From contig NZ_JTAN02000012.1 of the NCBI RefSeq assembly GCF_000949135.2, positions 310,001 through 374,000 on the forward strand: 64,000 bases of DNA, in the 5' to 3' direction. This DNA is from Burkholderia sp. USMB20. Its GTDB lineage: Bacteria; Pseudomonadota; Gammaproteobacteria; Burkholderiales; Burkholderiaceae. Below the pieces are notes generated by a model, which saw nothing but the letters and a program-made list of their open reading frames with translations, did no database searches and had not been told where the DNA came from. The translations under genes and the position numbers were made by a program. Shown in pieces: positions 1 through 56,818 of the stretch; within the stretch, counting starts at the first letter, position 1, and each line of letters opens with the position of its first letter.

Positions 1-1
1 T

Positions 2-412
2 CACGTGCTCGATCCGAAGGGCGCGGTGGGCGTCGCGGAAAAATCGCTGATCGCGACAGCGACGTGGGCAATGCTGATCGTCGTCATTCCGGTGATCCTG
101 CTCACGCTGTGGTTCGCATGGCGCTACCGCGCATCGAACCGCAACGCCGCCTACGCGCCGAACTGGTCGCACTCGACCGCGATCGAGGTCGTGATCTGGA
201 CGGTGCCGACGCTGATCATCCTGTTCCTCGGCGTGCTCACGTGGCGGACGACGCACGAGCTCGACCCGTACAAGCCGATCGAATCGTCGGTCAAGCCGAT
301 CAATGTCGAGGTCGTCGCGCTCGACTGGAAGTGGCTGTTCATCTATCCGGAACTCGGCATCGCGTCGGTGAACCAGCTCGCGATTCCGGTCGGCACGCGA
401 TGCCGGGGCTGA
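2..412 (+). pseudogene. cyoA: cyoA, 5' part (interrupted), quinol oxidase subunit II
   Basis: This is an internal piece of subunit II of the cytochrome bo3 ubiquinol oxidase, entering from beyond the left edge. The visible part holds two membrane helices (about residues 20-40 and 60-80 of the piece) and the start of the periplasmic cupredoxin-like domain, up to [13 protein letters not shown]. At position 399 the sequence switches abruptly to an ABC permease, and the CyoA frame stops at 410-412. The missing domain resumes at 1958 after a 77-bp repeat. Joining 398 to 2035 restores one continuous frame. The break is either a real insertion or an assembly error, and I favour the latter. Confidence 0.85.
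322..398 (+). repeat. 77-bp direct repeat, left copy (cyoA sequence)
   Basis: The 77 bases are identical to 1958-2034, and the copies lie 1636 bp apart. Both are cyoA coding sequence. The flanking bases differ on each side (t321 versus g1957, g399 versus c2035), so the identity is exactly 77 bp. The repeat brackets a foreign ABC-transporter segment. Confidence 0.97.
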
Positions 413-1581
413 TCTGGAACATGATGATGTCGATGTCGGGCGGCTGGTTCTTCGTCGTCGCGTCGGAGGCGATCACCGTCGGCAACCAGACCATCACGCT
501 GCCGGGCATCGGCGCGTATCTCGCGCAGGCGATCTCGGACAAGAACCTTGGCGCGATCGGCTGGGTGATCCTGACGATGACGGTCGTGATCCTCGCGTAC
601 GACCAGTTCCTGTTCCGCCCGCTGATCGCATGGGCCGACAAGTTCCGGATGGAGAACACCGCATCGGGCGATGCGCCGCAATCCTGGCTGCTCGACCTCG
701 TGCGCCGCACGCGCCTGATTCACCAGCTGCTCGTGCCGGCCGGCTGGTTCTTCGCGAAGGCGGCGCGGATTCCGCTGCGCCTGCCGCTGTCGGGCGCAAT
801 GCGCTTCTCGCTGCCGAAGGTCGAGAAGAAGGCATCGCGCACGGTCGACATCGCATGGGCGGCGCTCTTGCTGCTCGGCACGGCCTATATCGTGTGGCGC
901 GTCGTCAGCTTCGTGTCGACCGGCGTGACGATGGGGGAGGTCGGGCACGTTGTCGCGCTCGGGCTCATCACGCTGCTGCGCGTGGTCGTGCTGATCTCGA
1001 TCGCGTCGGTGATCTGGGTGCCGATCGGCGTGTGGGTCGGGCTGCGCCCGAAGCTGGCCGAGAAGCTGCAGCCGCTCGCGCAGTTCCTTGCCGCGTTCCC
1101 GGCGAACCTGCTGTTCCCGGTGTTCGTGATCGTGATCGCGCGCTTCCACCTGAACCCCGACATCTGGCTGTCGCCGCTGATCGTGCTCGGCACGCAGTGG
1201 TATATCCTGTTCAACGTGATCGCGGGCGCCACGTCCTATCCGAACGACTATCGCGAAGCCGCGACGAACTTCCGGATCCGCGGCTGGCAGTGGTGGCGCC
1301 AGGCGATCCTGCCCGGCATCTTCCCGTACTACGTGACCGGCGCGATCACCGCATCCGGCGGCGCGTGGAACGCGAGCATCGTGTCGGAAGCGGTGCAGTG
1401 GGGCTCGACCAAGATCGAGGCGCACGGCCTCGGCGCGTATATCGCGCAGACCACCGCCGCCGGCGACTTTCCGAAGATCATCCTGGGCATCGCCGTGATG
1501 TCCCTGTTCGTCACCCTGTTCAACCGCCTGCTGTGGCGCCCGCTGTATGCCTTCGCCGAAGCGAAGCTGCGGCTCGACTGA
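400..1581 (+). pseudogene. C-terminal part of a duplicated anion ABC transporter permease, inserted in cyoA
   Basis: About 393 residues of an inner-membrane ABC permease of the nitrate/taurine/sulfonate type in which two permease modules are fused. What is present is the end of the first module (GIGAYLAQAIS), a linker, and a full second module. The second module has several membrane helices and an EAA-like loop (REAATNFRIRGWQWWRQAIL) that would contact the ATPase. The repeated GIGAYLAQ/GLGAYIAQ motif supports the internal duplication. The N-terminal part is missing because the left junction falls at 398/399. A 22-bp gap separates it from the ATPase fragment. The apparent start codon at 400 is internal sequence, so the fragment is unlikely to be functional here. 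Confidence 0.85.
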
Positions 1582-1603
1582 GACCGATTGAGAGCGAAAC
1601 GCG

Positions 1604-1957
1604 ATGCACAATCCGAATGCTGTAAACGCCCCCGTCCAGACGTCCCAGCCGCCGCGCCTCGGTGAGGAAATCCTGCGCGTCGATCACGTCTGCCGCGGCT
1701 TCAACAAGACGCAGGGCGAGTTGCTGGTGCTCGACGACGCGAACCTGTCGCTGCGCGAGGGCGAGATCGTCGGGCTGCTCGGCCGTTCGGGCTCGGGCAA
1801 GTCGACGCTGCTGCGGATCATCGCCGGGCTGATCGAGCCGACCGGCGGTGACGTGACCTATCTCGGCAAGCCGCTGCGCGGCCCGGCCGAAGGCGTCGCG
1901 ATGGTGTTCCAGACCTTCGCGCTGTTTCCGTGGCTGACCGTGCTGCAGAACGTGGAG
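1604..1957 (+). pseudogene. N-terminal fragment of an anion ABC transporter ATPase, inserted in cyoA
   Basis: This fragment is the first ~118 residues of an ABC ATPase of the nitrate/taurine family. Walker A (GRSGSGKST) and the Q-loop region ([19 protein letters not shown]) are visible. It is cut before the signature motif and Walker B, where the sequence returns to cyoA at 1958. The start at 1604 lies 22 bp after the permease stop, the usual operon layout. After the junction this frame happens to stay open out of frame across cyoB and runs into the cyoC frame, giving a spurious 1156-codon ORF. Without its catalytic half the fragment cannot hydrolyse ATP. Confidence 0.85.
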
Positions 1958-2034
1958 CGACTGGAAGTGGCTGTTCATCTATCCGGAACTCGGCATCGCG
2001 TCGGTGAACCAGCTCGCGATTCCGGTCGGCACGC
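1958..2034 (+). repeat. 77-bp direct repeat, right copy (cyoA sequence)
   Basis: This is an exact copy of 322-398 and marks where cyoA coding sequence resumes after the ABC-transporter segment. Removing one repeat copy plus the intervening DNA (1636 bp, not a multiple of three) regenerates an intact cyoA frame. Confidence 0.97.
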
Positions 2035-2447
2035 CGGTGAATTTCCGCATCACGTCCGACTCGGTGATGAACTCGTTCTTCATCCCGCAGCTTGGCAGCC
2101 AGGTCTATGCGATGGCCGGCATGCAGACGCGCCTGCACCTGATCGCCGACGAGGCGGGCGACTACGCAGGCGTGTCCGCCAACTACAGCGGCCGCGGCTT
2201 CTCCGACATGAAGTTCCGCACGCTCGCCGAGCCGCGCGAACAGTTCGACGCGTGGGTGCGGAAGGTGAAGGCGTCGTCCGACCGGCTCGACATGACCGCG
2301 TACGGCACGGTCGCGCAGCCGGGCGAGAAGGCGCCCGTGCGCTATTTCTCGTCGGTCGACCCGAAGCTGTTCCACAACATCATCGCGAAATACAACAACG
2401 GCCACGTCCTCGACCCGAAGGACGCCGCCTGCACGACGAAGGGGTAA
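1958..2447 (+). pseudogene. cyoA: cyoA, 3' part (interrupted), quinol oxidase subunit II
   Basis: This part carries the periplasmic cupredoxin-like domain and C-terminus of CyoA. The first 77 bp repeat 322-398, then [20 protein letters not shown] and the rest of the fold follow. The cysteine and histidine ligands of a CuA centre are absent, as expected for a quinol oxidase rather than a cytochrome c oxidase. The frame ends with TAA at 2445-2447, three bases before cyoB, so the operon spacing is intact. As assembled, this piece has no start codon of its own beyond a GTG at 2004, which is an internal valine. If the insertion is an artefact, the gene is complete apart from the off-window 5' end. 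Confidence 0.88.
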
Positions 2448-2450
2448 CGC

Positions 2451-4463
2451 ATGTTCGGAAAACTGACTCTTTCGGCGATCCCGTTCGATCAGCCCATCAT
2501 CATGGGGGCGAGCGCCTTCATGGGGCTCGTCGTGCTGGGCATCGTCGCCGCGCTGACGGTCGCGGGCCGGTGGAAATGGCTGTGGAGCGAATGGCTGACG
2601 TCCGTCGATCACAAGAAGATCGGCGTGATGTACCTGGTCGTCGCGGTGCTGATGCTGCTGCGCGGCTTCGCGGACGCCGTGATGATGCGCGTGCAGCTCG
2701 CGCTCGCGTACAACGGCCCCGGCTACCTGCCGCCGCATCACTACGACCAGGTCTTCACCGCGCACGGCGTGATCATGATCTTCTTCATGGCGATGGCGCT
2801 GCTGGTCGCGTTCTTCAACCTGATCGTGCCGCTGCAGATCGGCGCGCGCGACGTCGCGTTCCCGTTCCTGAACTCGCTCTCCTTCTGGATGACGGCGGTC
2901 GCCGCGATCCTGATGAACGTTTCGCTCGTGATCGGCGAATTCGCGCAGACGGGCTGGCTCGCGTATCCGCCGCTGTCGGAGCTGCAGTTCAGCCCGGGCG
3001 TCGGGGTCGACTACTACCTGTGGGCGCTGCAGATCTCGGGCGTCGGGACGCTGATCACGTCGATCAACTTCTTCGTGACGATCATCAAGATGCGCGCGCC
3101 GGGCATGACGCTGATGAAGATGCCGGTGTTCACGTGGACCGCGCTCTGCTCGAACGTGCTGATCATGGCGACGTTCCCGATCCTGACCGTCGCGCTCGCG
3201 CTGCTCGGCCTCGATCGCTATCTCGACATGCATTTCTTCACCAACGAAGCCGGCGGCAACGCGATGCTGTACCTGAACCTGATCTGGGCGTGGGGGCATC
3301 CGGAGGTATACATCCTCGTGCTGCCCGCGTTCGGCATCTATTCGGAAGTCATCGCGACGTTCGCGAAGAAGCCGCTGTTCGGCTACCGGACGATGGTCTA
3401 TGCATCGTGCGTGATCATGGTGCTCGCGTTCCTCGTGTGGCTGCATCACTTCTTCACGATGGGCTCGGGGGCCGACGTCAACGCGTTTTTCGGGATCATG
3501 ACGATGGTCATCGCGATCCCGACCGGCGTGAAGATCTTCAACTGGCTGTTCACGATGTATCGCGGCCGCATCGAATTCACGGCGCCGGTGCTGTGGACGA
3601 TCGGTTTCATGGTCACGTTCACGCTCGGTGGGATGACCGGCGTGATGATGGCGATTCCGGGCGCGGATTTCGTGCTGCACAACAGCCTGTTCCTGATCGC
3701 GCATTTCCACAACGCGATCATCGGCGGCGTCGTGTTCGGCTACTTCGCGGGCGTTCACTACTGGTTCCCGAAGGTGTTCGGCTTCCGGCTCGACGAGAAG
3801 TTCGGCAAGCGCGCGTTCTGGTGCTGGTTCCTCGGCTTCTACGCGTCGTTCGTGCCGCTGTACGTGCTCGGCTTCATGGGCATGACGCGCCGCCTGAACC
3901 ACTACGACAACCCGGCATGGCATCCGTGGCTGGTCGCCGCCGCGTGCGGCGTCGCGCTGATCGCGATCGGCGTGCTGTGCCAGGTCGCATCGGTGTGGGT
4001 CGGCTGGCGCAATCGCAACCAGCCGCAGTATCGCGACGCGACGGGCGACCCGTGGAACGGCCGCACGCTCGAATGGGCGACGTCGTCGCCGCCCGCCGTC
4101 TACAACTTCGCGGTGCTCCCGAACGTGCACGAACTCGACGAGCTCGCGTATCGCAAGGCGAAGGGCCTCGGACTCGGCCTCGGCAAGAACGTCAGGTACG
4201 AGGACATCCACATGCCGTCGAACACGAGCGCGGGTTTCTTCGTCGGGATCTTCAGCCTGCTGCTCGGTTTCGCGCTCGTCTGGCACATCTGGTGGCTCGC
4301 GATCGCCGCGCTCGTCGGCATCGTCGCGACGGTGGTGCTGTACAGCGCACAGGACAACGACGGCTATTACATTCCGGCGGATACCGTCCGCAAGATCGAG
4401 GAACAACGCGCGGGCGTGCGGATCGGCACGCTGGCGCCGGAAGTCGAACTGGAGGCGAACTGA
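2451..4463 (+). CDS. cyoB: Cytochrome bo3 ubiquinol oxidase subunit I
   Basis: CyoB is the catalytic subunit of the proton-pumping quinol oxidase and reduces O2 at a haem-copper centre in the inner membrane. At 670 residues it has the family's normal length, with about 15 membrane helices. The metal ligands are visible: H105 (FTAHG) and H420 for low-spin haem, H283 and cross-linked Y287 in WGHPEVYI, H332/H333 for CuB, and H418 for the high-spin haem ([10 protein letters not shown]). The gene starts three bases after cyoA and its TGA overlaps the cyoC ATG by one base. No cyoE (haem O synthase) follows in this operon. Confidence 0.97.
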
Positions 4464-5074
4464 TGTCGTATCAATCTCTCGCGGGCGCCGCCCGTCATCC
4501 GGGCGCGCACCACCATCCGCCGTCGCATTCGGTGTTCGGCTTCTGGCTGTACCTGATGACCGACTGCGTGATCTTCGCGTCGCTGTTCGCGACGTTCGCG
4601 GTGCTCGGCAACCAGTTCGCCGGCGGTCCGACCGCGAAGGACCTGTTCGACATTCCGGGTGTCGCGCTCGAGACGGCGGCGCTGCTGCTGTCGAGCATCA
4701 CGTACGGGTTCGCGATGCTCGGCGCGCAGCGCCGCCGGCGCGGCACGGTGTTCGTGTGGCTCGCGGTGACGTTCGTGCTGGGCGCCGCGTTCCTCACGAT
4801 GGAACTGCGGGAGTTCTCGCACCTGATCGCCCAGGGCGCGGGCCCGCAGCGCAGCGCATTCCTGTCGGCGTTCTTCGCGCTCGTCGGCACGCACGGGCTG
4901 CACGTGGCGGTCGGCCTCTTGTGGATGGTCGTGCTCGTCGTGCAGATCGCCCGCGGCCCCGGCATGACGGAGCGCGACTTCCGGCGCCTCACCTGCCTGA
5001 GCCTCTTCTGGCATTTCCTCGACATCGTCTGGATCTGCGTGTTCTCCTTCGTCTATCTCGCGAGCGTGCTCTAA
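4463..5074 (+). CDS. cyoC: Cytochrome bo3 ubiquinol oxidase subunit III
   Basis: CyoC is a 203-residue membrane subunit of the bo3 quinol oxidase with five predicted helices. It stabilises the complex around subunit I and holds no metal centre. Family hallmarks are FGFWLYLMTDCVIFASLFAT near the N-terminus and the GTHGLHV segment. The ATG overlaps the cyoB stop (TGATG), which implies translational coupling, and the next gene begins immediately after its TAA. The N-terminus carries a histidine-rich stretch (residues about 11-18), common in this family. Confidence 0.96.
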   Translation: MSYQSLAGAARHPGAHHHPPSHSVFGFWLYLMTDCVIFASLFATFAVLGNQFAGGPTAKDLFDIPGVALETAALLLSSITYGFAMLGAQRRRRGTVFVWLAVTFVLGAAFLTMELREFSHLIAQGAGPQRSAFLSAFFALVGTHGLHVAVGLLWMVVLVVQIARGPGMTERDFRRLTCLSLFWHFLDIVWICVFSFVYLASVL

Positions 5075-5407
5075 ATGGCCCATTCGGAACTCATCCACCA
5101 CGATGAAGCGCACGGCACGGCCGGCGGCTACCTCGTCGGTTTCGTGCTGTCGGTGCTGCTGACGGCCGCGTCGTTCGGCCTCGTGATGGGCGGCATGCTG
5201 GCGCCGAAGGCGGCGATCATCGCGCTCGCGGGGCTCGCATTCGTGCAGATCGTCGTGCATCTCGTCTGCTTCCTGCACATGAACGCGTCGTCCAGCCAGC
5301 GCTGGAACGTGATGGCGTTCAGCTATACGGTGCTGACCGCGCTGATCCTGATCGTCGGGACGCTGTGGGTGATGCACAACGTCAGCATGAACATGATGTC
5401 GCGATAA
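5075..5407 (+). CDS. cyoD: Cytochrome bo3 ubiquinol oxidase subunit IV
   Basis: CyoD is a 110-residue membrane protein with three helices, matching the size and layout of CyoD, the small subunit that assists assembly of the CuB site. The motif VQIVVHLVCFLHMN in the second helix is typical. Its ATG directly follows the cyoC stop with no gap. The operon ends here: a hairpin followed by a T-rich tract lies 35 bp downstream, and the next gene is an unrelated desaturase. Confidence 0.94.
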   Translation: MAHSELIHHDEAHGTAGGYLVGFVLSVLLTAASFGLVMGGMLAPKAAIIALAGLAFVQIVVHLVCFLHMNASSSQRWNVMAFSYTVLTALILIVGTLWVMHNVSMNMMSR

Positions 5408-5441
5408 CCGGCCCGGGGCGCGGTCCGTCCCGTCCCGCTGC

Positions 5442-5470
5442 GCCGTGCGTGCCGCACGGCTCCTTTTCTT
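5442..5470 (+). terminator. Rho-independent terminator after cyoABCD
   Basis: A perfect 7-bp stem (GCCGTGC/GCACGGC, 5442-5448 and 5454-5460) with a 5-nt loop is followed by TCCTTTTCTT. Its position directly after cyoD fits the end of the operon. Confidence 0.7.
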
Positions 5471-5487
5471 TCGGGCGTGCGAATCGC

Positions 5488-6678
5488 ATGCCTTTCTGCA
5501 TCATGGTCAACAACGATTCCCAGACACCGGTTCGCGCCGACGAGCCGATCCCGCACCGCAAGGTCATCCGCGCATGGCTCGTGCCGTTCGCCACGCGCGA
5601 GATCGTGCGCCCGATCCTGCTGCTCGTGCTCGACTACCTGTTGCTGTTCGCGGCGTTCGCCGGCGCGCTGCTGATTCCGTCGACGGTCGGCAAGATCGCC
5701 TGCGGGATGGCCGCCGGGTTCATCACCGGGCGACTGTTCATCATCGGGCACGACGCGTGCCATCAGAGCCTGACGCCCGACCGCCGGCTGAACCGCTGGC
5801 TCGGCCGCATCGCCTTCCTGCCGTCGCTGACGCCTTACAGCCTGTGGGAAGTCGGGCACAACGTCGTGCATCACGGCTATACGAACCTGAAGGGCTTCGA
5901 TTTCGTGTGGGCGCCGCATACGCCGGCGGAATTCGCCGCACTGTCGCCGGCGCGGCGGTGGCTGGATCGCGTCTACCGGAGCGGATGGGCGCCGGGCCTC
6001 TACTATCTCGTCGAAATCTGGTGGCTGCGGATGTATTTCCCGACCCGGGGCTATATCGGTGCGTCGCGGCCGGTGTTCCGGCGCGACTGCCTGCTGGTGA
6101 CGGGCTTCGCGGCCGTGTGGATCGCCGCCGTCGTCGGGGTGGCGATCGAGACGCAGCAATCCGTCGCGCTGCTGCTCGCGACCGGCGTGCTCGTGCCGTT
6201 CCTGTTCTGGTGCTCGATGATCGGCTTCGTCGTGTATGTCCACCATACCGACCCGCGCATCGCATGGCACGCGAACCGCGCCGAATGGTCGAATGCCGCA
6301 CCGTTCGTGTCGACCACGCTGCACCTGACGTTTCCGTTCGGTATCGGCGGCCTGCTGCACCACATCATGGAGCACACGGCGCATCACGTCGACATGAGCG
6401 TGCCGCTGTACCGGCTCAAGCCGGCGCAGGCGAAGCTCGAGGACATGCTGCCCGGGCGGATCGTCGTGCAGCGCTTCGGCTGGCGCTGGTACTTCGACAC
6501 GGCCCGCCGCTGCAAGCTCTATGACACCGACCGCAAGCTCTGGACCGACTATCGCGGAAACGTGACGAGCGAGGCGGCACCCGAGGTGCGCGCGCCGGCC
6601 GCGGCGGGCGCGCGGCAGGGGGCGGTTCCCGAAGCCGCGGGCAACGCGCCCGCCGCGACCGCTCAGGCGGTGCCGTAA
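5488..6678 (+). CDS. Membrane fatty acid desaturase
   Basis: This is an integral-membrane di-iron desaturase of the acyl-lipid type. The three histidine boxes are present: HDACH, HNVVHH and HTAHH, with hydrophobic segments between them. ATG 5488 (MPFCIMVNND) is used; ATG 5503 (MVNNDSQTP) is equally plausible because neither has a clear ribosome binding site. The last ~40 residues are an Ala/Pro/Gly-rich tail outside the catalytic domain. The gene converges with fdhD and the two overlap by 16 bp. It probably inserts a double bond into membrane acyl chains, but position and substrate cannot be read from sequence. A terminator separates it from the cyo operon. Confidence 0.88.
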   Translation: MPFCIMVNNDSQTPVRADEPIPHRKVIRAWLVPFATREIVRPILLLVLDYLLLFAAFAGALLIPSTVGKIACGMAAGFITGRLFIIGHDACHQSLTPDRRLNRWLGRIAFLPSLTPYSLWEVGHNVVHHGYTNLKGFDFVWAPHTPAEFAALSPARRWLDRVYRSGWAPGLYYLVEIWWLRMYFPTRGYIGASRPVFRRDCLLVTGFAAVWIAAVVGVAIETQQSVALLLATGVLVPFLFWCSMIGFVVYVHHTDPRIAWHANRAEWSNAAPFVSTTLHLTFPFGIGGLLHHIMEHTAHHVDMSVPLYRLKPAQAKLEDMLPGRIVVQRFGWRWYFDTARRCKLYDTDRKLWTDYRGNVTSEAAPEVRAPAAAGARQGAVPEAAGNAPAATAQAVP

Positions 6679-7493
6679 TCGACGTGGCCGGTTTCGCGGC
6701 AGAAGCTGACGAGCCGCAGGCCGGCCGCCTTCGCGATCTCGATCGCGAGCGACGACGGCGCGGAGATCGTCGCGACCATCGGAATGCCGACCCGCGCCGA
6801 CTTGCGCACGAGCTCGTAGCTCGCGCGGCTCGACAGGAACACGAAACCGTCGGTCGCGTCGGCGCGCGCCAGCACGAGCGCGCCGATCAGCTTGTCGAGC
6901 GCGTTGTGGCGGCCGACGTCCTCGAACGCCATCCGGATCGCGCCTGTTGCGTCGCACCACGCGGCCGCATGCAGGCCGCCGGTGAGCTGCGTGAGCGCCT
7001 GGTGCGCCGGCAGCCCGTGGGCCGCGCGCGCGAGCGCGTCGGGCGCGAGGCGCGCGAGAAAACCGGTGTCGGGTACGCGTTCGGGCGCGAGGTCGAGCAG
7101 GTCGATGCTTTCGATGCCGCACACGCCGCAGCCGGTACGCCCCGCGAGCGCGCGGCGCCGGTCCTTCAGCGCGGCGAACGCCTGCTGGACGACTTCCAGA
7201 TGCACCTCCGCGTGCGGCAGCGGCGCGTCGGCGTGCAGGATCACGTCGATGTCCTTGATGTCGCTGCCGCGCTCGACGATCCCTTCCGAGATCGCGAAGC
7301 CGACCGCGAACGCCTCGAGGTCGCGCGGCGTGCACATCATCACCGCGTGCGAGATGCCGTTGAAGACTAGCGCGACCGGCCATTCCTGGCCGACGTAGTC
7401 GTGCGCGGTCTCGACGGCGCCGCCGCGCGTGCGGCGCACGGACAGCTCGATCGCGCCGCGCGGCTCTTCTGTTTCGGTCGGATTCACGAGCAC
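6663..7493 (-). CDS. fdhD: Formate dehydrogenase accessory sulfurtransferase FdhD
   Basis: FdhD passes sulfur from the desulfurase IscS to the bis-MGD molybdenum cofactor of formate dehydrogenases, which is required for their activity. The 276-residue protein has the family length and the essential redox motif CGVC (within RTGCGVCGIES). It also shows the conserved segment FEDVGRHNALDKLIGA and SSRASYELV. It is a cytoplasmic protein transcribed away from the next plus-strand gene. No formate dehydrogenase structural gene lies in the window, so the partner enzyme must be encoded elsewhere. Confidence 0.95.
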   Translation of the reverse strand: MLVNPTETEEPRGAIELSVRRTRGGAVETAHDYVGQEWPVALVFNGISHAVMMCTPRDLEAFAVGFAISEGIVERGSDIKDIDVILHADAPLPHAEVHLEVVQQAFAALKDRRRALAGRTGCGVCGIESIDLLDLAPERVPDTGFLARLAPDALARAAHGLPAHQALTQLTGGLHAAAWCDATGAIRMAFEDVGRHNALDKLIGALVLARADATDGFVFLSSRASYELVRKSARVGIPMVATISAPSSLAIEIAKAAGLRLVSFCRETGHVDYGTA

Positions 7494-7607
7494 TCCCGTT
7501 GATTCGAGGCAGGGGCGGCGGCGATCGGGTCCGCCGCTCGCGCGCAGAGGTTCTAAAATACCTCAGGCAGGCCGGCCGCGCCGGCATCCGCCACTCAGGT
7601 AACGACC

Positions 7608-43794: not shown

Positions 43795-44829
43795 TCAGGT
43801 GAAGCTGCGTGCGCCGGTGCCGGCCGGCACATCCGCCGGTTCCGCGGCGAGCGCGTGCCACGTGGCGCGCAGCCATTGCGCGCACGCGACGTTGTTGTCG
43901 AAGATCGAATAGCGGGCGCCGCCGCCGTAGTCCGGAAACGGGATGAACTCGCAGCTGATCTGCTCGAGCGGTGTCGGCCGCGTATGCACCTGCCACTCCA
44001 GCAGGCGCCGCAGCGCCGTCTTCCACGTGTCGAGCGGTGCCGCGCGCCATTCGCCGTGATACGCGCCCGGCGCCGGTTCGACGAACGGGTACTGGATCCC
44101 GCGGCCGGGCCGTCCGTCCGCGCGGCGCATCCAGCGGTTCTCCGGATTGTTCGGAATCACGCTGCGCGCATGCGCGTGGCGGACCCAGCCGCGTGCGATC
44201 CAGTCGGCGTAGACGGCCGACGGCGAGGCCGGGTCGAGCAGCTGCCGCACGCGCTCGACCGGCTCGCGCAGGCCCGACGCATCGAGTTCGGGGCGATTGC
44301 CGAGCTTGAACAGCAGGTGCGAATGGTCGAGCGTGATCCGGAACGGCACGCCTGTTTGCTCGACGCATTGCGCGACGCGCGCGATCCGCGGGAAATCCTC
44401 GCTCCACATGTCGACGTGCACTTCGAGGCTCGGCAGGCAGCCAACCGGCTCGCCGCGTTCGTATGCGCGCAGGTAGAAGTCGGCGACTTCGCGGTCCGAC
44501 AGCGGATGGCCGTCCGCATGGTGCGCGTACAGCTGGCAGTTGAGTACCGTGCTGCCGAACCGCGCGCCGGCATCGACGATCTCGGCGACGTGCGCTTCGT
44601 CGCGGCCGGCGCACCAGATGCCGCCGATCACGCGGATCGGCAGCGCATGCCGGTCGACGAGCGCGAAGTACGGCGACAGGTCCTCGCCGTGCACCGGGTT
44701 CTTCTCGACGTAGTCGAACACGCCGGCGTCCGCGATCATCCGGAACCGCTCGGCAGGCGTGGGCAGCGGCAGGCCGTCGTGTTCGAGCACGCCGTCGAGG
44801 TTCACGCCGATGAGTATCGCTTCAGCCAT
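43795..44829 (-). CDS. Xylose isomerase-fold protein, possible MocC/IolE-like enzyme
   Basis: This 344-residue TIM-barrel protein has the xylose isomerase-like fold. It starts AEAILIGVNLDGVLEHDG, and carries LEVHVDMWSEDF and ITLDHSHLLFKLG, which place metal-binding Glu, Asp and His at barrel strand ends. The last third (SCEFIPFPDYGGGARYS) is unlike the neighbouring IolI-type protein, so this is a distinct subfamily. By position it could be the inosose dehydratase- or MocC-like step in an inositol-derivative route; I cannot confirm it. ATG 44829 has a GGAGACGATGGC context. A candidate operator lies 67 bp upstream. Confidence 0.7.
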   Translation of the reverse strand: MAEAILIGVNLDGVLEHDGLPLPTPAERFRMIADAGVFDYVEKNPVHGEDLSPYFALVDRHALPIRVIGGIWCAGRDEAHVAEIVDAGARFGSTVLNCQLYAHHADGHPLSDREVADFYLRAYERGEPVGCLPSLEVHVDMWSEDFPRIARVAQCVEQTGVPFRITLDHSHLLFKLGNRPELDASGLREPVERVRQLLDPASPSAVYADWIARGWVRHAHARSVIPNNPENRWMRRADGRPGRGIQYPFVEPAPGAYHGEWRAAPLDTWKTALRRLLEWQVHTRPTPLEQISCEFIPFPDYGGGARYSIFDNNVACAQWLRATWHALAAEPADVPAGTGARSFT

Positions 44830-44895
44830 CGTCTCCGTCCGTTCCGGTTCTGGATGGCTGCCAAATGTACGGACGTGCCGAGCGGGCTGCATGAC

Positions 44896-44909
44896 AAACG
44901 TTGACGAAA
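44896..44909 (+). promoter_or_regulatory. Candidate LacI-family operator, copy 1
   Basis: AAACGTTGACGAAA lies 67 bp upstream of the TIM-barrel gene start (minus-strand operon). The same 14 bases occur in inverted orientation at 46108-46121 upstream of the oxygenase operon. It has an AACGTT core typical of LacI-family sites, and the LacI-type regulator is encoded between the two copies. Confidence 0.6.
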
Positions 44910-44970
44910 AATCGCCCATGCGGCGGTCGATTTTTTTTGCGGCGCGCGTCCGCGCGATGCGCGGCGGGCG

Positions 44971-46035
44971 TCAGGCCGGCAGGTACGCGCTGGTGCGCAC
45001 GTTGGCCGAGCAGAACACGCGGAATTCGACCGGGTCGCCCGGCGGCGGCTGTTCGACGATCCCGCACGCGTGCAGCACGTGCTGCAGCGCGGAAATCGCC
45101 TGGCCGTCCGGATCCTGGTCGATCGCAATGTCCATCGAACCGGCCTCGATGTAGGTGCGATGCAGGTCGATCATCTCGTGGCCGATCCAGACGACGCGCC
45201 CGGCCGCGCCCGCCTTGCGCAGCGCGGCCTCGATGCCGGCCGAGCCCGCGCCGCTGTTGTAGATCCCGACGATGTCGCCGTGCGCGTGCAGCGCGTTCGT
45301 CACCGCGCGGTAGCAGCGGTCGTCCTGGTCGAGCGTTTCGATCGGCGCGTCGTCGCAGCGGAGGTCGGGAAAGGCTTCCCGCAACTGGTCGATGCAGCCG
45401 GCCATCCGGTCGGCGTGCGCGCGGTAGCCCATCCGTCCGGCGAGCAGCAGCACGCGGCCGGGGCGTGCCGCGAGGCGGCCGATGTAGTAGCCGGCCGTGC
45501 GTCCGGCGCGGTAGTTGTCGATGCCCGCGTAGTGCACGCGGCCGACGCCGCCGATGTCGGTGACCATCGTGACGACGGTCTCGCCGCGCGCGATCGCGCC
45601 GGCCAGTGCGTCGCGCACGCGCGGCGTGTCGCGCGCGGTGACGATCAGTGCCGCGCGCCGGTACGCGGGCCGTTCGATCAGCGCGGCCGCGCGCTCGTCG
45701 TCCGCGGCGGGCAGGATGGTCCGGTGCACGACCACGCGCCGGTCGAGCATCTGCAGCGAGCGTTGCACCGCCTGCTGCAGCCGCCGGAAGAACGGTGCAT
45801 CGGTGTCGGGCAGCAGCACGTCGACGTGAAGCAGCCCGTGCCGCGTGTCGGGCAACTGGCGCGGCACGCCAAGCTGGCGCGCGGCCGCCACCACGCGCTC
45901 GCGTGCCTGCGCGGACACGCTGCCGCGCTCGTTCAGCACGCGGTCGACGGTGGTCGTGCTGACCCCGGCGAGCGCCGCGATCTCGTCGAAGCGCGCGGTG
46001 CGCTTGCGCCAGCGCGGACCGGTCGGGTCGGCCAT
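44971..46035 (-). CDS. LacI-family transcriptional regulator with sugar-binding domain
   Basis: This 354-residue protein has an N-terminal LacI helix-turn-helix (FDEIAALAGVSTTTVDRVLN, residues ~15-35) and a periplasmic-binding-type effector domain. Motifs in that domain are HVDVLLPDTDAPFFRRLQQA, AGIDNYRAGRTAGYYIGRLA and AGRMGYRAHADRMAG. The effector part resembles sugar- or inositol-binding ABC receptors. It sits between two transcription units of the putative inositol-derivative cluster, and both carry the same 14-bp element upstream. This makes it their likely repressor. ATG 46035 follows an ACGGAGACGACC-type site. Confidence 0.88.
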   Translation of the reverse strand: MADPTGPRWRKRTARFDEIAALAGVSTTTVDRVLNERGSVSAQARERVVAAARQLGVPRQLPDTRHGLLHVDVLLPDTDAPFFRRLQQAVQRSLQMLDRRVVVHRTILPAADDERAAALIERPAYRRAALIVTARDTPRVRDALAGAIARGETVVTMVTDIGGVGRVHYAGIDNYRAGRTAGYYIGRLAARPGRVLLLAGRMGYRAHADRMAGCIDQLREAFPDLRCDDAPIETLDQDDRCYRAVTNALHAHGDIVGIYNSGAGSAGIEAALRKAGAAGRVVWIGHEMIDLHRTYIEAGSMDIAIDQDPDGQAISALQHVLHACGIVEQPPPGDPVEFRVFCSANVRTSAYLPA

Positions 46036-46107
46036 GGTCGTCTCCGTGTTCGTCTGTCGTCGCCAGCGGGGTGTGGCGCTGTCCGGAACGCTAAAGCGAT
46101 GGCGAAA

Positions 46108-46121
46108 TTTCGTCAACGTTT
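46108..46121 (-). promoter_or_regulatory. Candidate LacI-family operator, copy 2
   Basis: TTTCGTCAACGTTT, the reverse complement of 44896-44909, lies in the 175-bp divergent gap between the LacI-type gene and the oxygenase gene. It overlaps a CGAAATTTCG palindrome (46103-46112). Binding here could control both directions. Confidence 0.6.
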
Positions 46122-46210
46122 CGATTGAGCGGGTCATGGCCGTCGCCTAATTTTGAATGCATGCGAAGCGCGTGCCGCGCTTCCCGCAAACGAACAATCA
46201 GGAGACACGC

Positions 46211-47296
46211 GTGGCCCACACGAACGATCAGGCGCACGACCGCGACGCGGCGGCACGCCGTCAGGATTACCGAATGATCGGCGGTGCCGGCGAGCGTGCG
46301 CGTGCCGCGGGCCTCGTCAATGCCGCGTGGTACCGGTGCCCGGTGCCGCGGCCGCTGATGAAGCAGCTGATGCAGCGCGACGATGCGCGCGCGATCCGCG
46401 ACACGCTGATCTGGTACGCGGCGATCGTCGCGAGTGGCGTGCTCGCGTGGCTCGCCTGGCGTGCGCATTCCGCGTGGGCGATCCTCGCGTTCTTCGTGTA
46501 CGGCACGCTCTACTGCAGCCCGGCCGACTCGCGCTGGCACGAGTGCGGACACGGCACCGCGTTCCGCACGCGCTGGATGAACGACGTGCTGTACCAGGTC
46601 GCGTCGTTCCAGGTGTTCCGCCGCGCGACGGTCTGGCGCTGGAGCCACGCGCGCCATCACACCGACACGCTGATCGTCGGCCGCGATCCGGAAATCGCCG
46701 CGCCGAAGCCGACCGACTGGCTCGGGCTCATGTTGAACGTGGTGGCGCTGAAGCACGTCGCGAGCGAGCTGCGCAAGATGATCGTGCTCGCGTTCGCCGG
46801 CCGGCTCGACGCCGAGGAGCGCACCTACGTGCCCGAATCGGAGTGGCCGAAGGCCGTGCGCGAGGTGCGGATTCATCTGACCGTTTATGCGTGCGTGATC
46901 GGTGCGGCGTTGTACTGGCACACGATCCTGCCGGTGCTCTACATCGGCTTGCCGAGCCTGTACGGTGCGTGGCTGTACCTGTACTTCGGCCTCACGCAGC
47001 ACGCGGGCATGCCGGAGAACGTGCTCGATCACCGGCGCAACTGCCGGACCGTGAGGATGAATCCGGTATTCCGCTTCCTGTACTGGAACATGAACTATCA
47101 CGTCGAACACCACATGTTCCCGATGGTGCCGTTCCACGCGCTGCCGAAACTGCATGAAGCCGTGAAGGCTGACATGCCGCCGCCTTACCGCAGCACGCTG
47201 GCCGCGTATGCGGAGATCGTGCCGGCGCTCGTCCGGCAGACGCGCGACCCGTCGCATTACGTCGTGCGGCCGGTGCCCGACGCGGCGCGCGCATGA
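46211..47296 (+). CDS. Membrane di-iron hydroxylase/desaturase, MocD-like
   Basis: This is an inner-membrane non-haem di-iron enzyme of the desaturase/AlkB-XylM superfamily. From GTG 46211 it is 361 residues, with histidine boxes at ~110-114 (HECGH), ~146-150 (HARHH) and ~297-301 (HVEHH), plus a further His at ~264 in TQHAGMPENV. GTG is chosen because GGAG lies 6 bases upstream, and the same AGGAGACACGC leader precedes the next gene. A ferredoxin and reductase follow, so it is a three-component system receiving electrons from NAD(P)H. In rhizobia, MocD with MocE and MocF is needed to demethylate the rhizopine 3-O-methyl-scyllo-inosamine. The same role on an O-methyl inositol compound is proposed here. 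Confidence 0.78.
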   Translation: MAHTNDQAHDRDAAARRQDYRMIGGAGERARAAGLVNAAWYRCPVPRPLMKQLMQRDDARAIRDTLIWYAAIVASGVLAWLAWRAHSAWAILAFFVYGTLYCSPADSRWHECGHGTAFRTRWMNDVLYQVASFQVFRRATVWRWSHARHHTDTLIVGRDPEIAAPKPTDWLGLMLNVVALKHVASELRKMIVLAFAGRLDAEERTYVPESEWPKAVREVRIHLTVYACVIGAALYWHTILPVLYIGLPSLYGAWLYLYFGLTQHAGMPENVLDHRRNCRTVRMNPVFRFLYWNMNYHVEHHMFPMVPFHALPKLHEAVKADMPPPYRSTLAAYAEIVPALVRQTRDPSHYVVRPVPDAARA

Positions 47297-47333
47297 CCGC
47301 GCATCGAACATTCCAACGAAGGAGACACGCAAC

Positions 47334-47642
47334 ATGACGCAATGGATCGACACCGGCGCCCTCGACGACATCGACGACGAAGACGTCGCGCGCTTCGACC
47401 ACGACGGCCGCACATACGCGATCTACCGGATCGACGGGAACGTGTATGCGAGCGACGGGCTGTGCACGCACGAGCACGTGCATCTCGCGGACGGGCTCGT
47501 GATCGATCACGTGATCGAATGTCCGAAGCACAACGGGCGCTTCGACGTGCGCGACGGCCGGGCACTGTCGGCGCCTGCCTGCGAGAAGCTGCGCACCTAC
47601 CGCGCGAAAATCGAGAACGGCCGCATCCTGATCGAGGTGTGA
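47334..47642 (+). CDS. Rieske-type [2Fe-2S] ferredoxin, MocE-like
   Basis: This 102-residue soluble ferredoxin has the Rieske cluster ligands CTHEHVHLADG and CPKHNGRFDV, so two Cys and two His bind the iron-sulfur cluster. It matches the length of stand-alone ferredoxins such as those of aromatic dioxygenases and MocE. It lies 37 bp after the membrane oxygenase and 4 bp before the reductase, indicating one transcript and an electron-carrier role between them. The leader AAGGAGACACGC is nearly identical to that of the preceding gene. Confidence 0.93.
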   Translation: MTQWIDTGALDDIDDEDVARFDHDGRTYAIYRIDGNVYASDGLCTHEHVHLADGLVIDHVIECPKHNGRFDVRDGRALSAPACEKLRTYRAKIENGRILIEV

Positions 47643-47646
47643 CGCG

Positions 47647-48897
47647 ATGGCGAACGACCGGGTGATGGCGATCGTCGGCGCGGGCCATGCGGGCGGCCGC
47701 GCGGCGCAGGTGTTGCGCGAGGGCGGCTGGCGCGGGCGCATTGTGCTGATCGGCGCGGAGGCGCACTTGCCGTACGAGCGGCCGCCGCTGTCGAAGGGCG
47801 TGCTGACCGGCGAGCGCAGCGCCGCGCAATGCGGGCTGCGCGATCCGGATGCGTGGCGCGCGGACGGCATCGAGCCGATCGTTGCGATGGTCGAGCGGAT
47901 CGATCCGGTGGCGCGCGAGGTGCATGTGTCGGATGGCCGCGGCTTCGCTTGCGAAGCGCTGCTGCTCGCGACCGGCGGCCGTGCGCGCCGCCTCGCGATT
48001 CCGGGTGCGGAGCTCGCCGGCGTATTCGCGTTGCGCACGCTCGACGACGCGGCGGCGCTCGGTGCGCGGCTCGTGCCCGACGCGCGCGTCGTGCTGATCG
48101 GCGGCGGCTTCATCGGTCTCGAGGTCGCGGCGTCGGCGCGGTTGCGCGGCTGTCGCGTGACCGTGCTCGACGCGGCACCGCGCCTGCTCGGGCGTGCGGT
48201 GCCGGAGCCGATCGCGGCACGCGTGCATGCGCTGCATGCGGCGCGGGGCGTCGCGATCAGCCTGAACCGACGGCCCGTCGCGATCGAGCGCACGCAAGGC
48301 GGCGCACTGGCCGTCGTGCTCGACGACGGCGACACGCTGCTCGCCGATACGGTGGTGGCCGGCATCGGGATCGAGCCGGCCGACGAACTGGCGCGCGACG
48401 CGGGGCTCGTCACCGAGCGCGGGATCGTCGTGAACGCGCGGCTCGAGACCTCGGCACGCGGCATCTACGCAGCCGGCGATGTCGCGGTGTTTCCGAGCGG
48501 GGCGTCAGGGCGGCTCGTGCGTCAGGAAACCTGGCACGGCGCGGAAACGCAGGCGCGCGTCGCCGCACGCAACATGCTCGGCGCGGACGAACCGTATCGC
48601 GAGATGCCGTGGTTCTGGTCCGATCAATACGACGCGCAACTGCAGGTGGCCGGCGAACCGGCGCTCGGTGTGCGGACGGTCGCGCGCGTGCTCGGCGACG
48701 ATGCGGAAATCCATTTCCACTTCGATGCCGGCGAGCGGCTCGTCGCGGCGAGCGGCTTCGGTCGTGCGTCGGGGTTCGTTAAGGAGATGCGCGTTGCGCG
48801 CATGCTGGTCGAGCGCGGGATCGGCGTGACGCCGGAAGCGGTCGCGGATGCGGGGGTGAAGCTGAAGTCGCTGGTGTCGGCCGCGGGTGAACGCTAG
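47647..48897 (+). CDS. FAD-dependent ferredoxin reductase, MocF-like
   Basis: This 416-residue NAD(P)H:ferredoxin reductase has an N-terminal FAD fold (MAIVGAGHAGGRAAQVLREG), the LPYERPPLSKGVLTGE motif typical of dioxygenase-type reductases, and a NAD-binding VVLIGGGFIGLEVAASARL. It also has the second FAD motif ARGIYAAGDVAVFPS. It completes the oxygenase-ferredoxin-reductase unit, starting 4 bp after the ferredoxin stop. A strong hairpin follows 26 bp downstream. Frame is clean and length normal. Confidence 0.92.
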   Translation: MANDRVMAIVGAGHAGGRAAQVLREGGWRGRIVLIGAEAHLPYERPPLSKGVLTGERSAAQCGLRDPDAWRADGIEPIVAMVERIDPVAREVHVSDGRGFACEALLLATGGRARRLAIPGAELAGVFALRTLDDAAALGARLVPDARVVLIGGGFIGLEVAASARLRGCRVTVLDAAPRLLGRAVPEPIAARVHALHAARGVAISLNRRPVAIERTQGGALAVVLDDGDTLLADTVVAGIGIEPADELARDAGLVTERGIVVNARLETSARGIYAAGDVAVFPSGASGRLVRQETWHGAETQARVAARNMLGADEPYREMPWFWSDQYDAQLQVAGEPALGVRTVARVLGDDAEIHFHFDAGERLVAASGFGRASGFVKEMRVARMLVERGIGVTPEAVADAGVKLKSLVSAAGER

Positions 48898-48923
48898 CGG
48901 CGCCGGGCGAAGGAGAAGGGGAG

Positions 48924-48948
48924 GCGCGCGGCAGTCGCTGCCGCGCGC
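48924..48948. terminator. Strong hairpin after the oxygenase operon
   Basis: A perfect 11-bp stem GCGCGCGGCAG/CTGCCGCGCGC closes on a 3-nt TCG loop, 26 bp after the reductase stop. The following sequence is only moderately T-rich, so it may act in both directions between the convergent reductase and glpF genes. Confidence 0.65.
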
Positions 48949-48980
48949 TCGGTTCGGGTTCTGGTTCGGACTCAGAATCA

Positions 48981-49034
48981 GACTCGGACTCGGACTCGGA
49001 CTCGGACTCGGACTCGGACTCGGACTCGGACTCG
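48981..49034. repeat. GACTCG hexanucleotide tandem repeat, 9 units
   Basis: Nine uninterrupted copies of GACTCG fill 54 bp between the reductase and glpF stops, with degenerate copies just upstream (TCGGACTCAGAATCA). As a pure short tandem repeat it is expected to slip in copy number. Confidence 0.95.
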
Positions 49035-49048
49035 GGTTCGAACCCGAG
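49031..49048. repeat. 18-bp perfect palindrome next to the GACTCG repeat
   Basis: CTCGGGTTCGAACCCGAG is a perfect inverted repeat overlapping the end of the tandem repeat and lying 22 bp before the glpF stop. It contains a tRNA-like T-loop string but no tRNA surrounds it. Confidence 0.85.
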
Positions 49049-49069
49049 CCCGAATGAACAAACCTGCGC

Positions 49070-49786
49070 TCAGGCCATCGCGTGCAGGCGCAGATACAGG
49101 CCGGCCGCCGCGGCGCCGCCGAGCAGCGGGCCGATCACCGGCACCCACGCATAGCGCCAGTCGCTGTCGCGCTTGCCGGGGATCGGCAGCAGCGCATGCA
49201 TCAGGCGCGGCGACAGGTCGCGCGCCGGGCTCATCGCATAACCGGTCGGCCCGCCGAGCGAGATGCCGATGCCGAGCACGAGCAGGCCGACCGGCAGCGC
49301 GTCGAGCGCGCCGAGGCCGACCTGCGGCGACGCGAGATAGAGCACGCCGAGGATCAGCACGAACGTGCAGATCGCTTCGGTCAGCACATTGTGCGTGGTG
49401 CTGCGGATCGCGGGCGCCGTGCAGAACACCGCGAGCTTCAGGTCCGCATCGACTTCCTTCGCAAAGTGCTGGCGATACGCGAGCCACACGAGCAAGGCGC
49501 CCGCCATCCCGCCGAGCATCTGCGCGAGGATGTAGCCGCCGACCTTCGACCACGCGAACTTGCCCGCGAGCGCGAGGCTGATCGTGACGATCGGGTTCAG
49601 GTGCGCGCCGCTGAACGATGCGGTCACGTAGACGGCGACGAACACGGCCATCGCCCAGCCCATCACGATCACGATCAGGTCCGCGCCCTTGCCCTTGGTC
49701 TTCGCCAGCAGCACGTTGGCGACCGCGCCGTTGCCGAGCAGCACGAGAATGGCGGTGCCGATGAATTCTGCAATATAAGGTGACAT
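49070..49786 (-). CDS. glpF: Glycerol facilitator (aquaglyceroporin)
   Basis: GlpF allows glycerol to cross the inner membrane by facilitated diffusion. It is 238 residues with six helices and two half-helix loops. The two pore motifs deviate from the usual NPA-NPA: the first reads SGAHLNPIVTIS (NPI) and the second GGPTGYAMSPARDLSPR (SPA). The selectivity Arg after the second motif is kept. It is the last gene of the minus-strand glpD-glpK-glpF order, 96 bp after glpK. Glycerol specificity is inferred from this context. Confidence 0.92.
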   Translation of the reverse strand: MSPYIAEFIGTAILVLLGNGAVANVLLAKTKGKGADLIVIVMGWAMAVFVAVYVTASFSGAHLNPIVTISLALAGKFAWSKVGGYILAQMLGGMAGALLVWLAYRQHFAKEVDADLKLAVFCTAPAIRSTTHNVLTEAICTFVLILGVLYLASPQVGLGALDALPVGLLVLGIGISLGGPTGYAMSPARDLSPRLMHALLPIPGKRDSDWRYAWVPVIGPLLGGAAAAGLYLRLHAMA

Positions 49787-49882
49787 GTTTGTCTCTCGTA
49801 GGTCGCGGCGGACTCGCGCGTTGCGCGGTCCGCCGGTGTTGTTGTATTTCGTTCGGAGTTCTTGTGATTGCTGCCGCGGTGC

Positions 49883-51400
49883 TTACTGCGCGTCGTCGGC
49901 CCACGCCTTCGCGGCGCGCACCGCACGCTGCCAGCCGGCCATGCAGCGCTCGACCTGCTCCTTCGGCATCGACGGCGAGAAGCGGCGATCGAGCTGCCAC
50001 TGGCTGCGCACTTCGTCGAGGTTCTTCCAGTAGCCGATCGCGAGGCCCGCGAGATAGGCTGCACCGAGCGCGGTCGTCTCGGTGATCTGCGGACGCACCG
50101 CGTCGACGCCGAGCAGGTCGGCCTGGAACTGCATCAGCAGGTCGTTCGCGCTCGCGCCGCCGTCGACGCGCAGCTCGCCGATGCTGATGCCCGAGTCGGC
50201 TTCCATCGCGGCCAGCACGTCGAGCGACTGGTACGCGATCGCGTCGAGCGCCGCGCGCGCGAGGTGCGCGGAGGTTGTGCCGCGCGTGACGCCGAACACC
50301 GAACCGCGCGCCCGTGCGTTCCAGTGCGGCGCGCCGAGGCCCGCGAACGCCGGCACGAGATAGACGCCGTCGGTATGCGGCACGCTCGCGGCGAGCGCTT
50401 CGATCTCGGCGGCCGTCTTGATGATGCCGACACCGTCGCGCAGCCACTGCACGACCGCGCCCGCGATGAAGATGCTGCCTTCGAGCGCGTACTGCACATC
50501 GTCGCCGATCTGCCACGCGATCGTCGTGACGAGGTTGTTCTTCGACTCGATCGGCTTGTCGCCGGTGTTCATCATCAGGAAGCAGCCGGTGCCGTAGGTG
50601 TTCTTCACCATGCCCGACGTCGTGCACATCTGGCCGAACAGCGCCGCGTGCTGGTCGCCGGCGATCCCCGCGAGCGGGATCTTCGACGCGAACACCGTGG
50701 TTTTCGTATGGCCGTAGATTTCCGACGACGCCTTCACTTCCGGCAGCATGCTGCGCGGGATGTCGAGCAATTCGAGCAGCTCGCTGTCCCACTCGCGCGT
50801 GTGGATGTTGAACAGCATCGTGCGCGACGCGTTCGTCACGTCGGTCACGTGCAGCTCGTGCTTCGTGAAATTCCACACGAGCCAGCTGTCGACGGTGCCG
50901 AAGGCGAGCTTGCCCTGGCGCGCCTTGTCGCGCGCGCCCGGTACGTTGTCGAGGATCCAGCGGATCTTGGTCGCGGAGAAGTACGAGTCGATCGGCAGAC
51001 CGGTCTTCGCGCGCACCTTCGCCTCGAGGCCCTGTGCTTTCAGCGAATCGCAGAAGTCGGCGGTGCGGCGGTCCTGCCACACGATCGCGTTGTAGACGGG
51101 CTGGCCCGTCTCGCGATCCCAGACGATCGTCGTCTCGCGCTGGTTGGTGATGCCGATCGCGGCGATCGACGTGCCGTTCAGGCCGGTGCGCGTGACGGCT
51201 TCGGCGGCGACACCCGCCTGCGTCGACCAGATTTCCTGCGGGTCGTGCTCGACCCAGCCGGGTTGCGGGTAGATCTGTTCGAATTCCTTCTGGGCGATCG
51301 ATACGATGTTGCCCTGGCGATCGAACAGCATTGCGCGGGAGCTCGTCGTGCCCTGGTCAAGCGCGAGGATGTACTGATCCTGCATGTCTCTCATCTCCAT
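49883..51400 (-). CDS. glpK: Glycerol kinase
   Basis: GlpK phosphorylates glycerol to glycerol-3-phosphate with ATP in the cytoplasm. It is 505 residues, standard for the FGGY kinase family. Conserved parts are [50 protein letters not shown] and the C-terminal FGGY-type segment [19 protein letters not shown]. It lies 90 bp after glpD and upstream of glpF on the same strand. Confidence 0.97.
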
Positions 51401-51490
51401 CCGTGGATTGGCGTAGTTGTGATGCGCGCCGCATGTTACGCGGCGCGTCGGTGAATCAACGTCGGTCAGGCAACTGCAACTGCAAACGGA

Positions 51491-53014
51491 TCACGCGTGC
51501 GGCGCGTGCGCGGCGGCGAACCACGCATCGACCGCGGCCGTCACCGCGTCGAGCGTGCCGGGCGCCACGTGCAGGCCGAGCTTCGAGCGGCGCCACAGTA
51601 CGTCCTGCGCGCAGGTCGCCCATTCGACGTCGCGCAGGTAGCGCAGTTCGGCGTCGTGGATGCCCGGTGCGATCTCGGCGCCGAGGTCGGCGAGCGACGT
51701 CGCGCCGTCGACCACGCGTTCCGCGCGCGTGCCGTACGCGCGCGCATAGCGGCGCGCAAGCGCGGCGGGCAGCCACGGATGGCGTTTCGCGAATGCGTCG
51801 GCGAACACGTCGAACTTCGCGTTCGCGATGTCGCCGCCCGGCAGCGGCGCGCCGGCCGTCCAGGTCTTCGCGTCGCGGCCGAGCGCGCGACACAGCAGGT
51901 CGGCGGCTTCCTCCGCGAGCTTGCGGAACGTCGTGATCTTGCCGCCGAACACCGACAGCAGCGGCGCGCCGGCGCCGTCGTCCATCTCGAGGCGATAGTC
52001 GCGCGTGACGGCCGACGCATTCGCCGCGTTTTCGTCCTCGAGCAGCGGGCGCACGCCCGAATAGGTCCAGTGCACGTCGGCCGGCGAGATCTTGCGCTTG
52101 AAGTAGCGGTTGATCGAATCGCACAGATACTGCGTCTCGTCGCGATCGATCGCGACCTTCGCGGGATCGTTCGTGTATTCGACGTCGGTCGTGCCGATCA
52201 GCGTGAAGTCGTGCTCGTACGGAATCGCGAAGATGATCCGCTTGTCCGGGTTCTGGAAGATGTAGGCGTGGTCGTGATCGAACAGGCGCCGCGTGATGAT
52301 GTGGCTGCCCTTCACGAGCCGCACGCTGTGCTGCGCGCCGCGACCGAGCGCGCCGTGCAGCACTTCGCCGACCCACGGGCCGGCCGCGTTCGCGACCGCG
52401 CGCGCACGCACCACGCGGATCGAGCCGTCCGCGTGCCGCAGCCGCGCTTCCCATTCGTCGCCGCGGCGTTCCGCCGACACGAGTTTCGTGCGCGTGAGGA
52501 TCTCGGCGCCGCGCTCCTTCGCATCGAGCGCGTTCAGCACGACGAGGCGCGCGTCGTCGACCCAGCCGTCCGAATACACGAAGCCGCGCTTGATCGAGTC
52601 GATCAGCGGCGCGCCGGCCGCGTGGCGGCGCATGTCGATGCCGCGCGAGCCGGGCAGCAGTTCGCGCTTCGCGAGGTGATCGTAGAGGAACAGGCCGATG
52701 CGGATCAGCCAGGCCGGCCGCAGGTTCGGCATGTGCGGCATCACGAAGCGCAGCGGCCACATGATGTGCGGCGCCGCGCGCAGCAGCGTTTCACGCTCCT
52801 GCAGCGCTTTGCGGACGAGTCCGAATTCGTTGTATTCGAGGTAGCGCAGGCCGCCGTGAATCAGCTTCGTGCTGGACGACGACGTGTGCGACGCGAGGTC
52901 GTCCTGCTCGCAGAGCAGGACCGACAGGCCGCGGCCGGCCGCATCGCGCGCGATGCCGGCGCCGTTGATGCCGCCGCCGACGACGAGCAGATCGTAGCGA
53001 TTCGGTTGGGTCAC
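51491..53014 (-). CDS. glpD: Aerobic glycerol-3-phosphate dehydrogenase
   Basis: GlpD is a membrane-associated FAD enzyme that oxidises glycerol-3-phosphate to dihydroxyacetone phosphate and passes electrons to ubiquinone, potentially reaching the bo3 oxidase in this window. It is 507 residues. The dinucleotide-binding motif LLVVGGGINGAGIARDAAGR is at the N-terminus, with HTSSSSTKLIHGGLRYLEY and the C-terminal GlpD domain after residue ~390. It is first in the glpD-glpK-glpF order. The AT-rich 5' region with TTCGAA repeats is its likely control region. Confidence 0.97.
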   Translation of the reverse strand: MTQPNRYDLLVVGGGINGAGIARDAAGRGLSVLLCEQDDLASHTSSSSTKLIHGGLRYLEYNEFGLVRKALQERETLLRAAPHIMWPLRFVMPHMPNLRPAWLIRIGLFLYDHLAKRELLPGSRGIDMRRHAAGAPLIDSIKRGFVYSDGWVDDARLVVLNALDAKERGAEILTRTKLVSAERRGDEWEARLRHADGSIRVVRARAVANAAGPWVGEVLHGALGRGAQHSVRLVKGSHIITRRLFDHDHAYIFQNPDKRIIFAIPYEHDFTLIGTTDVEYTNDPAKVAIDRDETQYLCDSINRYFKRKISPADVHWTYSGVRPLLEDENAANASAVTRDYRLEMDDGAGAPLLSVFGGKITTFRKLAEEAADLLCRALGRDAKTWTAGAPLPGGDIANAKFDVFADAFAKRHPWLPAALARRYARAYGTRAERVVDGATSLADLGAEIAPGIHDAELRYLRDVEWATCAQDVLWRRSKLGLHVAPGTLDAVTAAVDAWFAAAHAPHA

Positions 53015-53049
53015 CTGCTGTCCTTATCGTCTGATGGAAATGGGCGAAC

Positions 53050-53108
53050 ATGAAATGTTCGAATTCGAAATTTAACGAACGAAATCGAAAAAGTAAAGTT
53101 CGAAAAAG
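53050..53108. promoter_or_regulatory. AT-rich control region upstream of glpD with TTCGAA repeats
   Basis: Within a GC-rich genome this patch carries the perfect palindrome TTCGAATTCGAA (53058-53069) and further half-sites AACGAACGAAA, TCGAAAAAG and TTCGAAAAAG in 50 bp. DeoR-family GlpR proteins bind TTCG-rich repeats near glp genes, so this is a candidate GlpR operator cluster. Confidence 0.6.
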
Positions 53109-56793: not shown

Positions 56794-56818
56794 CGGAACG
56801 CTTCCAGCGTGGTGCCCG

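Follow-up and report, generated by a model that had tools for sequence, protein, structure and literature searches.

Artificial overlaps of 127 bp have been reported at the ends of contigs assembled with SPAdes (PMC5923482). Since 127 is the largest k used by SPAdes, which makes overlaps at contig ends (PMC5481147), these two sources suggest that the length of such an overlap is equal to k. Most misassemblies of SPAdes are attributed to repeat resolution (PMC5481147), and its default k values for 150-bp reads are 21, 33, 55, and 77 (PMC12222747). The literature that we met on SPAdes overlaps and misassemblies held no description of a k-length copy doubled inside a contig, which is not a claim that none is in print. 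A different kind of origin is described for starving E. coli, in which complex rearrangement events were read as repeated template switching (PMC3161906).

The window analyzed here is a 64-kb stretch (64,000 nucleotides) of the Burkholderia sp. USMB20 genome, and it contains a cyoABCD operon for a bo3 ubiquinol oxidase. As in the known operon, both flanks of its split cyoA match CyoA, and CyoB and CyoD pass their family cut-offs. However, subunit II is interrupted as assembled, and the operon is a second copy. The split resembles the k-length overlaps and misassemblies of the SPAdes type (PMC5923482, PMC5481147, PMC12222747) in that the duplicated sequence has the length of a default k, the breakpoints fall where paralogues often share sequence, and the parent loci are contiguous in relatives. 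In contrast, the published overlaps are 127 bp long and located at contig ends (PMC5923482), whereas the duplicate of the window lies inside a contig and flanks a foreign fragment. We consider that the split is most likely artificial and came from a misjoin in the graph of a short-read assembly.

Structure of the split cyoA gene

As assembled, the cyoA gene is interrupted after base 398, and 1,559 bp lie between two exact 77-bp copies (R) with a start-to-start distance of 1,636 bp (Table 1). On the two flanks, bases 5-412 were aligned to positions 17-147 of the NCBIfam model TIGR01433 (CyoA), and bases 2004-2447 to positions 138-226 of 226. Each piece scored below the whole-protein cut-off of this model, as expected for fragments. 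The sequence-only reading had described a cyoA split between exact 77-bp repeats, with an insert made of the 3' part of a permease gene and the 5' part of an ATPase gene, both cut mid-gene. This description was confirmed by the position of the repeats, by TIGR01433 on both flanks, and by the PF00528 and PF00005 domains of the insert. On the 3' side of the cyo operon, a fatty-acid desaturase gene is followed by an fdhD-family gene.

Table 1. Coordinates of the features around the split cyoA gene in the window
Feature	Position	Strand	Evidence
cyoA 5' part, truncated by window start	1..321	+	TIGR01433 match
Repeat copy 1, 77 bp of cyoA codons	322..398	+	Exact repeat; followed by cyoA, not by the insert, in 33/33 relative loci
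Insert, internal fragment of anion-type ABC operon (ABC-1)	399..1957	+	Single full-length match in 25/25 same-genus genomes
ABC permease gene, 3' part, 393 codons, open	400..1581	+	BPD_transp_1 PF00528, E=2.2e-14
ABC ATPase gene, 5' part, 118 codons, open	1604..1957	+	ABC_tran PF00005, E=1.5e-18
Repeat copy 2, 77 bp	1958..2034	+	Exact repeat
cyoA 3' part	2035..2447	+	TIGR01433 positions 138-226
cyoB, intact	2451..4463	+	TIGR02843, 1132.7 bits, above cut-off
Putative cyoC, open	4463..5074	+	End of mechanical ORF 1604..5074; named from operon order alone
cyoD, intact	5075..5407	+	TIGR02847, 119.3 bits, above cut-off

Besides R, no direct repeat of at least 40 bp was found in the 64-kb window. 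Perfect direct repeats of at least 50 bp within 6 kb were absent from the 137 loci compared (993,790 bases), which are not a random set, as many of them sit around the cyo and ABC operons. At the left junction, base 398 (C) is compatible with cyoA and donor alike, leaving an ambiguity of 1 bp. The right junction has 0 bp of common sequence. The window carries G at 1957, and 22 of 25 ABC-1 copies carry A, so this junction base may belong to neither parent.

Conservation of the parent loci in relatives

The nearest genome, G001, shares 43% of the sampled 31-mers. In this genome the two cyoA parts lie side by side on contig C15, overlapping by 77 bp, and the insert is located separately on contig C23. 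In each of the 33 cyo loci read from 24 genomes of the genus (the 25 genomes of the insert survey with the exception of G026), the cyoA parts were contiguous, that is, within 6 bp of the trimmed alignment ends, and the insert was absent. When up to 2 mismatches were allowed, the left junction was found in 0 of 65 genus genomes, and the same result was obtained for the right junction. Apart from small gaps, the regions 2035-42000 and 44001-64000 were collinear with contig C15 of G001, and the anomaly therefore stands isolated within the stretches compared.

In a plasmid collection, 63 records had a match, and none of them spans 80% of window positions 1-2600 in one place. The best match over the insert was from B. 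arboris (88.0%) and is probably an ABC-2 paralogue (see below). Over the cyo part, the best match was from B. cenocepacia (91.6%), with both cyoA flanks within 920 bp and without the insert. In the 266-kb record NZ_CP091015.1, catalogued as a plasmid of B. cenocepacia, cyoA and cyoB are found at 261071-261990 with 91.6% identity to the window.

Two cyo operons

Two types of cyo locus could be told apart among the 33 by what lies downstream. The cyo-2 type is followed by the desaturase and fdhD genes, and the cyo-1 type is defined here as lacking this flank. The cyo-1 type occurred in 24 of 24 genomes and cyo-2 in at least 9 of 24 (L089, L090, L092, L095, L096, L098, L101, L103, and L120), a lower bound because few candidates were scored per genome. 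In G046 and G061, the desaturase/fdhD flank was present on a contig other than that of the cyo operon.

The window operon, which lies with its flank within positions 1-7500, is of the cyo-2 type and is an accessory copy. Its cyoA bases 1..321 were closest to cyo-2 of G010 (96.3%) and G001 (92.5%); all cyo-1 copies reached at most 90.9%, and four other cyo-2 copies 87.8-89.7%. Bases 2035..2447 showed 95.2% to the cyo-2 of G001 and 96.4% to that of G010. An origin of the two flanks from different cyo copies was therefore not supported, both being closest to cyo-2 copies.

The sequence-only reading had proposed that a real insertion would leave the strain without a working bo3 subunit II. This does not follow, because the window operon is accessory and cyo-1 was present in all 24 genomes. 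By analogy with these relatives, the strain would also have cyo-1, and a real disruption would then hit the accessory copy. In G022, an identical cyoA tract of 532 bp is common to the two cyo copies (L119/L120), which resembles gene conversion.

The insert and its donor operon

The insert comprises an ABC permease gene reduced to its 3' two thirds and an ATPase gene reduced to its 5' quarter, with 393 and 118 codons versus ORFs of 585 and 445 codons at the same place in the nearest genome. The nitrate permease model TIGR01183 also gave a match to the permease part, with a score well under the cut-off. In 25 of 25 same-genus genomes, the insert gave one full-length match at the best locus with 85-96% identity, and the best of these was a single 96% block on contig C23 of G001. 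The expectation that an intact ABC operon exists elsewhere was thus borne out in relatives, where the insert is contiguous. A second paralogue, ABC-2, was found at 85-87% to the insert in at least 18 of the 25 genomes; this count is again a lower bound for the small number of candidates scored per genome. In G022, the second full-length ABC match reached just 70%.

Compared to G001, 30 codons of the permease part differed synonymously and 9 non-synonymously, and the corresponding counts for the ATPase part were 13 and 2, without stop codons. For the two cyoA parts, the synonymous/non-synonymous counts were 20/4 and 17/3 against G001, and 7/3 and 10/5 against G010. With no sign of decay and with identical repeats, either the event happened very recently or it is not real.

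In G010, G011, G065, G060, and G049, the donor ABC-1 has the orientation of cyo-2 and follows it 327-379 kb downstream. These genomes are five of the six that have both loci on one contig, and in the sixth, G022, the donor has the opposite orientation.

Proposed assembly mechanism

When a de Bruijn-graph assembler runs at k=77, a common 77-base vertex ends one edge and starts the next, and it is trimmed only between direct neighbours. If a foreign operon fragment were put between two truly adjacent edges, the shared vertex would be printed twice, once on each side. On this reading, the present genome would have been assembled with k=77, and the misjoin would have been born in repeat resolution. 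The true chromosome probably has an unbroken cyoA-2, with the 1,559-bp insert some hundreds of kilobases off in the ABC operon to which it belongs.

The length of R, 77 bp, is that of the largest default SPAdes k for 150-bp reads (PMC12222747). The probability assigned to a misjoin comes mainly from this exact length and from the contiguous relatives. A graph misjoin, as put forward by the sequence-only reading, therefore stands as the likeliest cause, and the misjoin itself is something that we infer. If the split is an artefact, cyoA-2 is misrecorded as disrupted and the ABC operon as partly duplicated, and the region is unfit for counts of gene loss or for pangenome counts. An exact internal duplicate of k length, flanking a fragment that is contiguous elsewhere, is a cheap warning sign of such errors.

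Alternative explanations

A real and very recent rearrangement was considered unlikely, and it can be formulated in two versions. In one, the stretch of about 330 kb that runs from cyoA-2 base 322 to ABC base 1957 would have been duplicated in tandem, and a deletion with its end points at cyoA base 398 and ABC base 399 would then have removed nearly all of one copy, of which 1,636 bp were left. In the other, a replication fork would have exchanged cyoA for the ABC operon as its template and then returned, re-entering 77 bp upstream of its exit. Both versions yield direct copies, preserve the donor orientation, and leave short microhomology or none, and the junctions indeed share 1 bp and 0 bp. 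The template-switch rearrangements of stressed E. coli (PMC3161906) would likewise produce a copied fragment of the genome and a direct duplicate, with microhomology short or absent. However, the junctions of the window are those of an assembly, and the length of its duplicate is that of an assembler k. The same-oriented donor downstream of cyo-2 in 5 of 6 one-contig genomes of relatives is not predicted by a random misjoin, and this arrangement fits a tandem duplication with near-complete deletion, so we keep a small share of probability for a real event. Against it, the repeat would have the length of a standard assembler k only by chance, the junctions occur in 0 of 65 genus genomes, the donor of G022 is inverted, and G at 1957, where 22 of 25 ABC-1 copies have A, means that the right junction may hold a base of neither parent. 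The specific outcome in which the split is a fresh scar, a 1.6-kb remnant of a tandem duplication of about 330 kb with the second cyoA broken, the ABC operon and the main cyo operon intact, and the 77 bp coincidental, is improbable. If true, it would offer a clean example of how a large duplication can shrink to a scar of 1.6 kb.

The junctions with 0-1 bp in common are also compatible with ligation or template-switch chimeras, that is, chimeric molecules formed in library preparation or whole-genome amplification and carried faithfully into the assembly. Such a wet-step artefact is very improbable here, as it needs two chimeric joins in cyoA at a spacing of exactly 77 bp. A lone chimeric read is normally outvoted in assembly. 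The flanking direct duplication could further be read as the target-site duplication of an inserted mobile element or gene cassette, which we regard as next to impossible. The usual target-site duplications are far shorter than 77 bp, and the two insert frames searched code only for parts of ABC genes, with PF00528 and PF00005 as the only domains above cut-off and no transposase or integrase. The best terminal inverted repeat within 40 bp of the insert ends had 10 of 15 matches, and 293 of 500 random pairs were as good or better. A transposable element was therefore rejected, in agreement with the sequence-only reading, which had noted neither a transposase nor inverted repeats.

Breakpoints and the proposed k=77 mechanism

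The positions of the breakpoints were examined in the relatives. Each insert end lay inside an identical run of at least 77 bp between ABC-1 and ABC-2 in 10 of 18 genomes, versus a mean of 0.20 over positions. Between 500 and 1700, sharing of at least 77 bp was 0.00-0.08 per 100-bp bin. Among 742 placements of a 1,559-bp segment, 17 did as well at both ends. The right-hand zone of paralogue sharing is broad (about 1700-2400), and the right insert end is consequently not a sharp feature. The paralogues of G001 showed a shared run of 89 bp over the left end and just 59 bp over the right end, and those of G010 had no shared run of at least 30 bp over either end. The paralogue argument is thus weak in the two genomes that are closest by cyo-2.

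The k-mer argument of the sequence-only reading holds in that 77 belongs to the SPAdes default set, but its simplest graph-edge version is not supported in relatives. If the insert were a k=77 edge bounded by divergence of the ABC paralogues, differences would be predicted at 475/476 and 1880, and 0 of the 43 ABC copies of relatives differed there. Other edge sizes fit common variable sites (e.g., 477 and 1878) and were given no weight, since variable sites are too many.

R belongs to a portion of cyoA that the two cyo types can have in common: it was identical to the window in 5 of 24 cyo-1 copies of relatives, and it lay within a longer tract identical between both cyo copies in 3 of 9 two-copy genomes (G011, G049, and G022). 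In the five identical cyo-1 copies, the match continues beyond R for 2-19 bp on its left and 7-22 bp on its right. The relatives thus do not support R as the maximal match of the strain's two cyoA copies, a reading that would account for its length without k. The ends of R differ from the points where cyoA-1 and cyoA-2 diverge in relatives, so this divergence does not account for branching at this exact vertex. By our own reasoning, a loop at one vertex could arise only from a path with a skip or from two wrong links that match each other.

Within single genomes, ABC-1 and ABC-2 also had long identical tracts in common, which reached 473 bp in G065 (L074/L134) and 317 bp in G013 (L063/L131). 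With ABC-2 at about 85-87% to the insert, these tracts suggest gene conversion between the paralogues.
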